DNA from: Candidatus Heimdallarchaeota archaeon
GTDB lineage: Archaea > Asgardarchaeota > Heimdallarchaeia > Hodarchaeales > LC-3
NCBI GenBank assembly: GCA_027364495.1
Contig: DAHXPE010000248.1
Coordinates: 1-16,199, forward strand
DNA length: 16,199 bases
Reading direction: 5' to 3'
Part shown: one piece after another, positions 2,016 through 16,098 of the stretch
How positions within the stretch are numbered: position 1 is the first letter of the stretch
Layout of the letters: each line of letters starts with the position of its first letter
Program-made: the position numbers and the translations under genes
Notes under the pieces: model-generated
Database searches by the model: none
What the model saw: the letters and a program-made list of their open reading frames with translations, nothing else
What the model was told of the DNA's origin: nothing

Positions 2016-2975
2016 TTACCGTTTTTTATGCTTATACCCTTTAGTGTAAACAGGTGCACTTTCAGGTAAGAATTCGAACAGTTCTTTTCTACTAACTTCC
2101 AATAATTCAATTTTTTTACCTAAGAGTTCTGCATAACAACGTATTTGTATACCCGATTCCTTAATATAATCAATTTCATCAGCAATTAAATCAGTCCAAT
2201 TTTTAGATCTGAGCAAATGGTGTTCTATTGTTAAATATTTTATATTAGTTTGATCAATGACTTTTTTGATATTTTCTTTGAATGCTGGTAACTGTTCTTT
2301 CATTGGCCCATCCATTATCAGAATATCAGGCTGTTCTGAGAGAATCCAATTGACATGCTCTTCTAACGGGATTCCAACCACATCGCCTGTATAACAAAAC
2401 TTTGTATCTTTATAGGTAATGCTACAGCCAACAACATACCCAAGAGGAGATTTTTCACCATGAGACAAAATAGGAGATCCTTTTATCACAAATTCATCAG
2501 TCTGAAAGGATGAATTTTCAGCTGGAAAAAAATCTTGTTTTAATTTTTTTAGCGCAATTGTAAATTTCCTAGCTCGGCGGGTTTGATTTCTATTTAAATT
2601 TCCTTTCGGATCTTTAATAAAAAAGGGTGCTATTGGAAAATCTTGCAATTGAGGATCCCAGTGATGCATAACCTTGCTTATTTTAACTGCTTCATTTATT
2701 TTCGGAAAATGATCATAATGATAATGACTAACCCAAAAACCAGCAACTGGTAATTCTTTCATAACTTGCAATATTGTTGCTCTGTGTTCATTTCGACGGT
2801 TCAGTTCCATTGAATGAGGGGGAAGATCATATCTTCTAGGAGCAACATCAACACCTGGATCAATAATAAATTGAGTATTTTTACCCTGAATCGTAATCGC
2901 CGAGCTTCTAGTTCCTAACGATTCGCCTGCTAACGGAATTAAATTTAAATCTAGTAAATGCACCACAGTAAGCAC
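2016..2975 (-). CDS. UPF0282-family metallo-beta-lactamase-fold hydrolase
   Basis: This 319-residue protein resembles the archaeal UPF0282 family of MBL-fold proteins. The N-terminal IPLAGESLGTRSSA segment and IDPGV strand (about residues 13-42) are typical of it. The metal motif SHYHYDH gives HxHxDH at residues 84-89. Later metal-ligand candidates are in ILSHGEK, YTGDVVG and TIEHHLL. Two metal ions and hydrolytic activity are expected from the fold, but the family's substrate is unknown. There is no ATG at the 5' end. The start is GTG at 2975, with further GTGs at 2966 and 2963. A TATA-like element at about 2996-3007 predicts a transcript beginning almost at 2975, so a leaderless GTG start fits. 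Length matches the family. The divergent gene at 3112 shares the upstream region. Confidence 0.88.
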   Translation of the reverse strand: MLTVVHLLDLNLIPLAGESLGTRSSAITIQGKNTQFIIDPGVDVAPRRYDLPPHSMELNRRNEHRATILQVMKELPVAGFWVSHYHYDHFPKINEAVKISKVMHHWDPQLQDFPIAPFFIKDPKGNLNRNQTRRARKFTIALKKLKQDFFPAENSSFQTDEFVIKGSPILSHGEKSPLGYVVGCSITYKDTKFCYTGDVVGIPLEEHVNWILSEQPDILIMDGPMKEQLPAFKENIKKVIDQTNIKYLTIEHHLLRSKNWTDLIADEIDYIKESGIQIRCYAELLGKKIELLEVSRKELFEFLPESAPVYTKGYKHKKR

Positions 2976-11880: not shown

Positions 11881-11959
11881 GAGTTTACATCTAATGAATC
11901 TTGTACATAACATTAATTTCAACATATAATCAAAAATAATTAGAAAAGGTATGGTTTTT

Positions 11960-12382
11960 ATGAAAGACGATTGTATTTTTTGCCAAATAGCTGAAAAAAA
12001 ATCACCAGCAGGAATTCTCTTTGAAAACAAATTAGTGATGGCCTTTATTGATATTCGACCAGTCAATGAAGGTCATGCGCTTGTAATTCCAAAGACACAT
12101 GCGAAATTAATTGAAGAAATTGAGTCAGAAGAAGTTTTTTTAGAGCTTTTTAGAGTGGGTAAAAAAATTCAACTAATGATAAAGGAAAAAATTCAGGGTA
12201 TAACCGGTTTTAATTATTTTATTGCTAATGGGGAAGACGCTGGTCAGGAAGTTTTTCATGTTCATCTCCATATTATCCCTAGGTATCCAAATGACGGGTT
12301 TGGTATTAAATTTGGTCCGAATTATGGAAAAATTTTAAATCAAGAAGAAATAAAGAATGTCAGAAATAAATTGTTGAATTGA
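11960..12382 (+). CDS. HIT-family nucleotide hydrolase
   Basis: This 140-residue histidine-triad protein has the signature FHVHLHIIPR near residues 99-108 (His100, 102 and 104; the middle one is the usual nucleophile). Cys5 and Cys8 (CIFCQI), with downstream histidines, form the zinc site seen in many prokaryotic HIT proteins. The PVNEGHALVIPKTH block (about 34-47) and FNYFIANGEDAGQ (84-96) are also family-typical. HIT enzymes hydrolyse nucleoside phosphoramidates or dinucleotide substrates such as AMP conjugates; the exact substrate is unknown. An in-frame ATG at 11951 sits directly on an AAAGGT site. The ATG at 11960 lies nine bases after that site and begins MKDDCIFC as in relatives, so it is preferred. 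The TGA stop is followed at once by TAA. Length is normal for the family and it appears to be a single gene. Confidence 0.92.
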   Translation: MKDDCIFCQIAEKKSPAGILFENKLVMAFIDIRPVNEGHALVIPKTHAKLIEEIESEEVFLELFRVGKKIQLMIKEKIQGITGFNYFIANGEDAGQEVFHVHLHIIPRYPNDGFGIKFGPNYGKILNQEEIKNVRNKLLN

Positions 12383-12487
12383 TAATATAGTTATAAAAAG
12401 AAAATTCCAAATATTTAATTTTAAAAATTATTAAAACTGCGTTAATTTTGTTTATATCGAAAAAGGGTGATCAGATTTCCACATTCT

Positions 12488-12973
12488 CTAAATAATAAGT
12501 ATTGGAAATAGCAACCAGGGTAAATTTATTCCTAAAACTACCACTAATTGTAATGTTGCATTTGGTCCAAACATTTCTTCACTTAATATAATTAACACAT
12601 TCGTCATCATTACTGAAGAACAGATCATAATTGGATTACGAATCCGATTTTTTCCCTTTATGAAAGCATATATTGCAAAGACATAAAATGGACCAAAAAA
12701 TATTGCATCGATAAGTATAGTCGTTTTCCACCAGAATTGTCTAGCCATTAGTAGAGGATCAAAAGTATTACCATATCAATGAATTATATTTACTATAAAT
12801 GGTAATGGCCAGATCAGATACTCAAAATGATATGGATCTGGAATAATTAATTTTTCAATATCAACTATATATGTAATAAACAAGATATTTATTAAAAAGT
12901 AAACCAGTATAGCAATATCTAGGGTACGTTTCCGTAATGGTGTTATACTGTAAGATGAAGTGGGAGTTGACAT
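12488..12973 (-). pseudogene. EXPERA-domain (TMEM97/sigma-2-receptor-like) membrane protein split by in-frame TGA
   Basis: One frame of 161 codons is interrupted only by TGA at codon 66 (12776-12778). It resembles human TMEM97 along its length. The basic start RKRTLDIAILVYFL corresponds to RRCVEWLLGLYFL. Asp38 lies where TMEM97 has Asp29. Then come FDPLL (Asp72, like Asp56 in KDPLL), YAFIKGKNRIRNP (YAFLKGSCKWIRTP), an SSVMMTN block (SVHTMTT) and the final hydrophobic PWLLFPILI. Four membrane helices are expected. The TGA falls where TMEM97 has Trp49 of KWYAKEF. The gene may be newly broken, mis-sequenced or read through; a shorter product could also start at ATG 12748. EXPERA proteins include sterol isomerase EBP and TM6SF2; an archaeal role in lipids is only a guess. 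ATG 12973 is preceded by AAAGGA (12984-12989). Confidence 0.75.
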
Positions 12974-13054: not shown

Positions 13055-13888
13055 TTAAAATTCAATAATCATATCTTCTTCACAAATATTATAGCCCCTT
13101 TTTTGCACTTCTATAAATTCTTCACAACTCTTGTCTAATACGGGATTTGAATGATTAATATGGGTAAAATAAAATTTTTCCTTATGCTGATTTCCTAATA
13201 ATTTCATAGTCTCCAATATTGGTGGATGAGGCACGAGTTTCTGCCTCATAATTTCTGTTTGTTTATAAAAAGTCCCGTCCAAAATTACTATATCTGCCAT
13301 TGTTATTCTTTGAATTATTTCATTTGTCAAATAATCCGTATCAGTTAAATAAATTACCTTTTTGTTTGTAATTTTATTTCTTATTTCTAATCCAACTGTG
13401 TTTCCATCTTCATTTCTATGTGGAACATAAAAAGGAATTATACTCAATGAATCATCGAATTTAAATTCTTCCTCTTGCTTAATTACCCTTTCTTCTAATT
13501 CTTGCCTTTCAAATAAATATGAAAATGGTTTATTACTCTTTAAAAATGAAAGATTTTCCTTTGTTGCATATATTGGAAACAATTTTGTTGAAGCTGACTC
13601 ACGGCCAAAATAAATCAGTCCTGTATAATGACCAATATGAAGATGAGTTAGTAATAATCCGTTAAGCTCCAAATTTTCTCTTTCTAAGTGTCTATTCATA
13701 AGATTTATTTGTTTTGGTAAATCAGGAGTGGCATCAATAATTAAAGAATTTGTCTTACCAAGTATACCAATACAAGAAACATATTTTTTTGTCTTTGTAT
13801 TTTGTATGTCGAGACAATTCTTACAAATACAATTGAGGTGAGGAATACCACCATCCTGAATTGTACCCAAGATAACAATTTTAGCCAT
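13055..13888 (-). CDS. PqqB-like metallo-beta-lactamase-fold hydrolase
   Basis: This 277-residue MBL-fold protein is of the PqqB-like type. The N-terminal LGTIQDGGIPHLNCICKNC (7-25) includes a CxCxxC cluster (Cys20, 22, 25), which in PqqB relatives binds a structural zinc. SLIIDATPDLPKQ (48-60) is family-typical. The metal motif is THLHIGHYTGL (81-91), giving HxHxGH, so the usual Asp is Gly86. Later ligand candidates are in VPHRNEDG, YLTDTDYL and THINHSNP. PqqB is tied to pyrroloquinoline quinone synthesis in bacteria, but no pqqA, C, D or E gene is here. An orphan hydrolase acting on another small molecule is more likely. ATG 13888 has AGGTG (13896-13900) at good spacing. A TATA box (13912-13921) is close enough for a very short leader. 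It is divergent from the methyltransferase gene. Confidence 0.85.
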   Translation of the reverse strand: MAKIVILGTIQDGGIPHLNCICKNCLDIQNTKTKKYVSCIGILGKTNSLIIDATPDLPKQINLMNRHLERENLELNGLLLTHLHIGHYTGLIYFGRESASTKLFPIYATKENLSFLKSNKPFSYLFERQELEERVIKQEEEFKFDDSLSIIPFYVPHRNEDGNTVGLEIRNKITNKKVIYLTDTDYLTNEIIQRITMADIVILDGTFYKQTEIMRQKLVPHPPILETMKLLGNQHKEKFYFTHINHSNPVLDKSCEEFIEVQKRGYNICEEDMIIEF

Positions 13889-14021: not shown

Positions 14022-14675
14022 ATGAATTTAATTGATGTTCTTAAGAATAGCGAACATACCTACAATTTAGTTGCATCTACCTATAATAAATTATTTTTTG
14101 ATGAGCTTTCTAGAAAACCATTTGATCGTGCTCTTTTAGATAAAATATCTGATTCATTGCATAAAGAAAATGCACTAATATTAGACATTGGTTGTGGCTC
14201 AGCTGGTCATGTTGGCAGATATCTATCCGAAAAAGGTTTCGTTGTCTGTGGTATCGATCTTTCACCTAAAAGTATTGAATTAGCCTAAAAAACCAATCCT
14301 AAAATGGATTTTAAAGTTATGAACATGATGCAACTTGATTTTAAAGATTCGTCTATTCAGTCAATACTGGCTTTTTATTCTATCATTCACATCCCTAAAA
14401 ATGAAATTACAAAGGTCTTTACTGAATTTTCTAGAGTATTAAAGCCAAATGGTCTTTTAATACTTGCTGTTCATGAAGGCACCACTGAACAGGTTATTGA
14501 TGAAATGCTAGGTTATAAAACAACTCTTTATGTTGATTTTTTTACTGATAAAGAATTGACCGAGAAATTATCTCAATCGAATTATTTAGTACAATATTCA
14601 CATACTAGAAAGCCTTATGAATTTGAACATCAAACCAATCGTGTATATATCATTGCAAAATCTATGAAAAAATGA
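14022..14675 (+). pseudogene. Class I SAM-dependent methyltransferase split by in-frame TAA
   Basis: Read through one TAA at 14286-14288, this is a complete 217-codon methyltransferase in a single frame. Motif I is ILDIGCGSAGH (about residues 53-63), binding S-adenosylmethionine. The acidic residue ending strand 2 is in VCGIDLSPKSIELA. The motif before the acceptor region is MNMMQLDFKDSS, followed by ILAFYSIIHI (strand 4) and FSRVLKPNGLLILAVHEG, typical of the Methyltransf_11/25 group. The stop replaces the residue after SIELA, where relatives often carry Lys, Arg or Gln (AAA or CAA are one change from TAA). The first part alone (88 residues) lacks the later strands. An internal ATG at 14304 could start a second piece, but it would lack motif I. 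It is either a fresh nonsense mutation or a base error. Substrate unknown. Confidence 0.75.
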
Positions 14676-14832: not shown

Positions 14833-16098
14833 ATGTCGACTCATAACATTAAAAGTGAAATCATTTCTTATAATATACTAGAAGATTATCCAGATTTTCT
14901 TGAATTACCCTGGAATAAACCTTTAGAAGAGTGGGATCAATTTTATGAGAATATTGTGGAATATGAAATAGGCATACATAGAAACATCGTTAAATTTCTT
15001 GAATATGATGACAAAGTTTATGCTTTTAAAGAATTACCCAAAAAACTTGCTACTCACGAATTTAACATGTTAAAGGAGCTCAAGGATTTAGAACTACCTG
15101 TTGTTAGACCAGTAGGCTATGTTCAATTTAAAAAAGATAATGGTGAGGAATATGGAATAATTATAACTGAGTATTTAGAATATTCAATTCCATTTAGGCT
15201 TTTGTTTTTTAAACCAAAACTTTATCGTTATCAAAAGAAAATGATAAAATCAATCGCGAATCTTATTGTAAGATTACATTTAGCTAAATTTTATTGGGGA
15301 GATTGTTCACTTTCAAATATTCTTTTCAAGCGAGATGCTGGTGAGCTTCAAGCATATCTCGTTGATGCCGAAACTATGGAGCATTATGATACTATCTCTA
15401 CACCCAAAAGAGAACATGACCTAGATATCATGACTGAAAATATTGGCGGAGACTTATTAGATATCGAGGCTCAAAATAAACAGCCCTTGGAATTAAATTT
15501 TATCGACACAGCAGAACAGATTAAAAAATCATACAGTGATTTATGGTCGACTTTAACTCAAGAAATAAGTTTTTCATTCCAAGAAAAATACAAAATAAGA
15601 CAAAAATTGGAAGAAATTTATAATCTAGGATTTGTTGTAAAGGAATATTCGTTAACACCAAAAGAATCCGCTAACGAACTTATCATGAATACTGTTGTAA
15701 CAGAAAAATTCTATTATAAAACTGAATTGAAAAATTTAACATCCATAATGAGTGAGGAAAATCAAGCTAAATTAATGTTCAATGATATTTTGGAATACAA
15801 AGCACATTTGGAGTCAAAACTGGATAGATCGTTTCCATTAAAGGTAATTGCACATCAATGGTATGATTCAATTTATAAACAGACCTTAAATCAAATGGGC
15901 ATTGATGAAGATGATATAAATGGACCACAAATTTTTTGTCAGGTTCTCGAACATAAATGGTTACTTTCAGAGCGAAACAAGAGTGATATAGGTCTCTTAA
16001 AAGCAATTAACGATTATTTGAAATTAGATGAAGCTAAAATTGAAAAAGAAGACCTTAATATTTCTAATTCCGCCTCTTTTTTAGAACCAAAAGATTAA
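14833..16098 (+). CDS. DUF4032 kinase-like protein
   Basis: This 421-residue protein of the DUF4032 family has kinase-like architecture. The opening LELPWNKPLEEW and GIHRNIVKF (24-55) are family-typical. Lys66 in VYAFKELP and Glu76 resemble the ATP-binding Lys-Glu pair. LPVVRPVGY and ITEYLEYSIPFR follow. The catalytic-loop equivalent is WGDCSLSNILF with Asp157 and Asn162, and the metal-binding equivalent is VDAET with Asp178. HDLDIMTENIGGDLLDIEA and the YKIRQKLEEIYNLGFVVKEY region follow. The C-terminal half (about 230-420) is mostly helical with a family-conserved layout. The key residues suggest it can bind ATP and perhaps phosphorylate an unknown, possibly small-molecule or lipid, substrate. 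The family is best known from bacteria such as actinobacteria, so transfer into this lineage is plausible. ATG 14833 fits the promoter. It ends overlapping the stop of the convergent edge gene. Confidence 0.85.
   Translation: MSTHNIKSEIISYNILEDYPDFLELPWNKPLEEWDQFYENIVEYEIGIHRNIVKFLEYDDKVYAFKELPKKLATHEFNMLKELKDLELPVVRPVGYVQFKKDNGEEYGIIITEYLEYSIPFRLLFFKPKLYRYQKKMIKSIANLIVRLHLAKFYWGDCSLSNILFKRDAGELQAYLVDAETMEHYDTISTPKREHDLDIMTENIGGDLLDIEAQNKQPLELNFIDTAEQIKKSYSDLWSTLTQEISFSFQEKYKIRQKLEEIYNLGFVVKEYSLTPKESANELIMNTVVTEKFYYKTELKNLTSIMSEENQAKLMFNDILEYKAHLESKLDRSFPLKVIAHQWYDSIYKQTLNQMGIDEDDINGPQIFCQVLEHKWLLSERNKSDIGLLKAINDYLKLDEAKIEKEDLNISNSASFLEPKD

Follow-up and report, generated by a model that had tools for sequence, protein, structure and literature searches.

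Proteins with an EXPERA domain are discussed almost only in the context of eukaryotic sterol biology. Both ligand-binding aspartates of TMEM97, the sigma-2 receptor (Asp29 and Asp56), are described in one study as essential for ligand recognition (PMC7409002), and proton transfer by acidic residues has been proposed as the mechanism of EBP and suggested for TMEM97 as well (PMC4263179). A survey from 2022 found PF05241 (the EXPERA family) to be 84% eukaryal in its data and noted it in a few actinobacteria (PMC9903846). Within the open-licence literature we found no paper pairing EXPERA with archaea or TMEM97 with Asgard archaea, and the papers on emopamil and archaea included none on archaeal members, judging by titles and some passages. 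Here we describe an EXPERA gene in a 16,199-nucleotide stretch (the window) of contig DAHXPE010000248.1, assigned to a Candidatus Heimdallarchaeota archaeon. The family occurs also in lineages not known to us to make sterols, and we know of no prokaryotic member that has been assayed.

The window gene is a genuine Asgard homologue of these proteins, probably broken, and belongs to a prokaryotic family that is known, under-studied and patchy. Its frame lies on the minus strand, begins with an ATG at 12973, spans 161 codons and ends in a TAG (12490-12488). The features at this locus are:

12488..12973, minus strand: interrupted EXPERA (TMEM97-like) gene, recognized by PF05241 (E 1.2e-13) and by an AlphaFold2 (AF2) model with a fold match to TMEM97
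12860..12862, minus strand: codon of Asp38, equivalent by alignment to TMEM97 Asp29
12776..12778, minus strand: in-frame TGA, codon 66, where 105 of 118 aligned rows have Trp
12758..12760, minus strand: codon of Asp72, equivalent by alignment to TMEM97 Asp56
12488..12748, minus strand: longest open reading frame (ORF) left open, 86 aa from Met76, without either aspartate and without the first helix
12488..12490, minus strand: TAG, codon 162, probably premature, at a position where relatives P0002 and P0003 have Tyr
12452..12487, minus strand: remnant C-terminal tail, RMWKSDHPFSI and a TAA, resembling the tails of relatives such as P0001

The original prediction had placed this frame in the EXPERA family as a homologue of TMEM97, with both ligand-binding aspartates and the DPLL, YAFxKGxxxxIRxP and S-x-x-M-x-T blocks retained, and all of this is borne out; the minus strand and the likely premature terminal TAG are additions. 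The read-through translation matches PF05241 at 51.8 bits, where the curated cut-off is 25.7; taken alone, the open 86-aa part reaches 44.4 bits (E 2.5e-11). From 632 candidates, 603 proteins proved to be relatives at E <= 1e-3; among the 120 listed, P0001 is the closest (77% identity) and the others lie at 53-67%. A family profile was built from the window frame and 37 of these 120 relatives (38 rows at 57-77% identity, with outliers down to 53%). Searched against PDB sequences it gave a single match at E <= 1e-3, the sigma-2 receptor/TMEM97 (E 6.4e-14), and in the profile alignment D38 and D72 – the two invariant aspartates – coincide with the receptor's MDLQ and DPLL aspartates. The three sequence blocks are present by eye. 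The AF2 model of the read-through frame shows the four-helix core fold of TMEM97 and EBP, and structure matching returns TMEM97, which is thus the nearest solved relative by sequence as well as fold.

A functional EXPERA protein is expected to have an uninterrupted frame. The window frame is interrupted at codon 66 and again at codon 162, with homology continuing beyond the latter: the codons past the TAG encode RMWKSDHPFSI before a stop, and the tail of P0001 reads RMWKSDCPFT. In addition, the window departs from five of 47 near-invariant sites (a leave-one-out count over the 38 rows), while the next highest rows depart from four, P0001 from one, and the mean is 1.16. Because the TGA falls at a Trp site, the TAG is probably premature and five near-invariant sites are changed, we take the copy to be, with reasonable confidence, a recent pseudogene, one that would have been functional in recent ancestors and has since decayed and been lost. 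The archaeal TMEM97 homologue originally predicted is, given the two interruptions and the changed sites, probably non-functional. EXPERA matches in other genomes carry no internal stop (0 of 62, in five genome samples, each centred on a genome chosen for having a PF05241 match). Two other window proteins, one UPF0282-like and one PqqB-like, have near-identical relatives (P0121, 315 of 316 residues equal, and P0139, 275 of 277, respectively), both recorded with 56,444 bases as their longest contig, which suggests that a nearly identical contig spanning the EXPERA gene is represented in the searched protein database. No intact near-identical EXPERA protein is found among the 120 relatives listed, a set whose length filter would hide an 86-aa fragment.

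The genes around the EXPERA frame establish the host:

13055..13888, minus strand: PqqB-like protein of the metallo-beta-lactamase (MBL) fold (PF12706), same-strand neighbour and host marker, with Asgard-named relatives at 40-47%
11951..12382, plus strand: HIT-family protein (PF01230, E 2.2e-23), convergent neighbour, ending in TGA
2016..2975, minus strand: UPF0282-like (PRK04286) MBL-fold protein, host marker by its relatives

The UPF0282-like protein has 18 relatives at E <= 1e-3, and all three named ones are Asgard (Kariarchaeaceae at 69%, Heimdallarchaeota LC_3 at 65% and a metagenome-assembled genome (MAG) of Thorarchaeota at 58%). The five best named relatives of the PqqB-like protein are likewise Asgard (two Hodarchaeales, Heimdallarchaeota LC_2 and LC_3, and Kariarchaeaceae, at 40-47%), bacterial names starting at 41% identity or less and with lower scores. 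These relatives place the host among the Asgard archaea, near Heimdallarchaeia, as had been supposed. The UPF0282-like protein matches 105 of the 227 sampled Asgard genomes, with the best rows at 38% identity or below, so that the sample includes no close relative of the host; it has no match in G001, the genome of EXPERA locus L047. Elsewhere in the window, a gene resembling S-adenosylmethionine-dependent methyltransferases (14022-14675, plus strand) is interrupted by a TAA at codon 89 (14286-14288), with homologous sequence before and after the stop, which makes it a second broken gene nearby, and the protein at 14833-16098 (plus strand) combines a Kdo/WaaP-type kinase domain with DUF4032.

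What the intact relatives may do is indicated by their neighbourhood. In loci on named genomes, counted over the best 80 of 145 confirmed loci, a short-chain dehydrogenase (SDR) adjoins the EXPERA gene in 56 of 80. Type A lies directly downstream on the same strand in 26 (12 Myxococcota/Deltaproteobacteria, 9 Bacteroidota, 2 Actinomycetota, 1 Spirochaetota, 1 Bacillota and 1 bacterium A37T11), and type B directly upstream in 30 (28 Bacteroidota and 2 Spirochaetota); the probes, from L010 for type A and L006 for type B, come from the same 80 loci. An SDR stands farther off (2-7 kb) in three loci, and 21 have none. These adjacencies do not amount to 56 independent events, since Bacteroidota, in which neighbouring genes are shared by descent as well, supply 28 of the 30 type B cases. 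Among the ten Asgard genomes with PF05241, type A is found in three: in G012 and G022 it lies upstream of the EXPERA gene, and in G086 the two are fused, a single open frame (L090, 1333-2583) encoding both the EXPERA and the SDR domain. Apparent fusions in bacteria (L005, L007, L013, L014 and L066) have offsets to the EXPERA frame that are not multiples of three; these are therefore over-extended SDR frames, leaving L090 as the only fusion. The 16,199-nucleotide window contains no SDR. The best NCBIfam model for type A, in the three Asgard cases and L008, is 7beta-hydroxysteroid dehydrogenase, and L011 and L079 (type A) and L006 and L036 (type B) have no NCBIfam match at 1e-40; because all scores of that model (145.7-174.3 bits) fall below its curated cut-off of 300, the SDRs are left without a name.

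Some of these loci have further features. Upstream of L090 is another membrane protein ORF (381-1277), without an NCBIfam family match. An old-yellow-enzyme-like flavoprotein adjoins the EXPERA gene in nine Bacteroidota loci (L036, L056, L063, L065, L068, L071, L072, L077 and L080), often with a type B SDR on the other side. In L090 and in L082 (Asgard genome G058) one base is missing at the same alignment column, in helix 1 and beside T runs; the gap lies upstream of the matched part and leaves the N-terminus in another frame, while the sister copy L083 is in frame. Homopolymer error, decay or a programmed frameshift could each account for it.

By analogy with EBP, intact members may be membrane lipid isomerases (or lipid binders) that work with an SDR. 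Such a protein would hold a hydrophobic lipid, ring-shaped or isoprenoid, in a membrane pocket whose predicted lining includes D38 and D72, and would shift a double bond by proton transfer, while the adjacent soluble SDR would interconvert alcohol and ketone on the same lipid. Minicystis rosea, the host of L013, makes cholesterol (PMC12004948). A bolder proposal, which we regard as speculative and unlikely to hold as a whole, is that a TMEM97-like EXPERA protein and a hydroxysteroid-dehydrogenase-like SDR form a two-part membrane lipid isomerase/oxidoreductase in prokaryotes, some Asgard archaea included, acting on a cyclic or isoprenoid lipid. If so, the module would be older than sterols as substrates, and eukaryotic EBP, TMEM97 and TM6SF would have originated from it, the window recording one lineage in the course of losing it. 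The SDR partnership is the more useful lead: with their strictly kept aspartates and recurrent neighbour, the prokaryotic members offer a tractable route to the role of this fold outside sterol biology.

The family has a patchy distribution, in archaea as well as in bacteria. Of the best 80 loci, 79 are bacterial and one is from Heimdallarchaeota, and in the five genome samples PF05241 is found in 10 of 227 Asgard genomes, 18 of 140 Myxococcota, 12 of 151 Chloroflexota, 8 of 149 Spirochaetota and 1 of 148 Bacteroidota, this last being the centre of its sample. Relatives occur in MAGs of Chloroflexi, Myxococcota, Bacteroidota, Spirochaetota and Actinomycetota, and those listed include P0109 from a Nitrososphaerales MAG. 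The window gene is not a lone archaeal member but one copy of a scattered family. The control genome, Sulfolobus acidocaldarius, has a PF05241 match at E <= 0.001, below the family cut-off. In two Asgard genomes, G011 (L084) and G015 (L085), an ORF (of 374 and 388 codons, respectively) encodes two EXPERA domains in tandem.

A rival reading is that the Asgard copies were inherited vertically and that eukaryotic TMEM97 descends from them. We built a tree from 66 of 119 rows, the 53 dropped being mostly near-duplicate Bacteroidales and Myxococcota, with some others and bovine TMEM97. The window pairs with P0001 (support 99/90) and then with P0002 and P0003 (99/95); Asgard rows stand in five places, seven of them forming a 100/100 clade. 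A single clade of all 13 Asgard rows is rejected (p 0.013), for a group that was named after the tree was seen and includes halves of the two tandem proteins. The test does not reject a clade that unites P0001-P0003 with the single-domain Asgard rows (p 0.181), or one of the window group with L047 (p 0.418), the two-clade reading likewise having been tested after the tree was seen. As a root in a quick tree, bovine TMEM97 sits on a branch of length 10, too long to place. In pairwise scores against bovine TMEM97, the window's sister P0001 comes out on top (45.7 bits) and is followed closely by bacterial L057 (45.4), while the Asgard rows with a name or handle rank 28th to 118th of 119 (the query being rank 0), most of them below L057. 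An archaeal member had been expected to bear on where the family arose; these results do not tie TMEM97 to Asgard over bacterial copies. Vertical descent thus has on its side the Asgard host, the 100/100 clade, the unrejected single origin and the score of P0001; against it stand the rejected 13-row clade, the score of L057 and the presence of PF05241 in so few Asgard genomes, and we hold it to be improbable. The window gene does not demonstrate descent from archaeal copies to eukaryotes. Several gains are the easier reading of the patchy spread, a single Asgard origin being possible, and the window copy was probably acquired laterally within this prokaryotic family.

Taking the evidence together, the explanation we favour, with fair though incomplete confidence, is that a Heimdallarchaeia-like host carries a gene for a four-helix TMEM97-like EXPERA protein that has decayed recently and is probably of lateral origin; its intact relatives would be lipid isomerases acting with an SDR. 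Several points weigh against it. An 86-aa fragment would escape the length filter, so that the state of the sister contig is itself a deduction; the count of changed near-invariant sites is just one above that of the next rows; a single origin could not be rejected for the single-domain Asgard copies, which leaves lateral acquisition unproven; and with the SDR missing from the window and, within 1.5 kb, from seven of the ten Asgard genomes, the functional link is indirect. Each stop could also be a sequencing or assembly error, the gene being intact in the cell. Single stops are nothing unusual in MAGs of this kind, since at least eight matches of the UPF0282-like gene in Asgard genomes carry one, and the nearby methyltransferase gene has one too; two of the ten Asgard copies elsewhere lack a base beside T runs, as in error-prone MAG data, and the read-through frame retains D38, D72 and the fold. 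Yet errors would have to account for two stops of different kinds and five changed near-invariant sites in one gene whose adjoining genes are open, and for the lack of an intact near-identical protein among the relatives listed even though the database apparently includes a nearly identical contig; we consider this somewhat unlikely. Finally, the stops might be read through or recoded, with TGA translated as Trp and TAG as Tyr or pyrrolysine, and the full protein made, which would suit a TGA at a mostly Trp position and a TAG where two close relatives have Tyr. However, TGA terminates five of the 19 listed window ORFs, the HIT gene among them, TAG and TAA terminate others, and the internal stops, one of each kind and spread over different genes, fit no single recoding, making this very improbable. 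A recent pseudogene is thus our preferred reading, and the window copy counsels caution: when an Asgard archaeon has a homologue of a eukaryotic protein, that gene need not be an ancestor but can belong to a scattered family and be in decay.

Set beside the known systems, the window frame is closest to TMEM97 (PDB 7m93 to 7m96 and 7mfi). The prokaryotic family differs from it at positions 132-133, 150 and 153, with EE, N and W against T, L, Y and Y in bovine TMEM97; whether there is endoplasmic reticulum retention or a receptor role is not readable from the window sequence, and the window copy is interrupted. EBP, the sterol delta8-delta7 isomerase (PDB 6oht and 8w0r), is more distant, with 14-16% identity and no match to its PDB sequences even at E <= 10 when a profile of the family is used. 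TM6SF1/2 have tandem EXPERA domains, as do the proteins of Asgard genomes G011 and G015, a likeness of arrangement only, whereas the window gene has a single domain. From the prokaryotic 'emopamil-binding family' proteins (PF05241), whose reading frames are open and which in 56 of 80 loci stand beside an SDR, the window copy differs on both counts.
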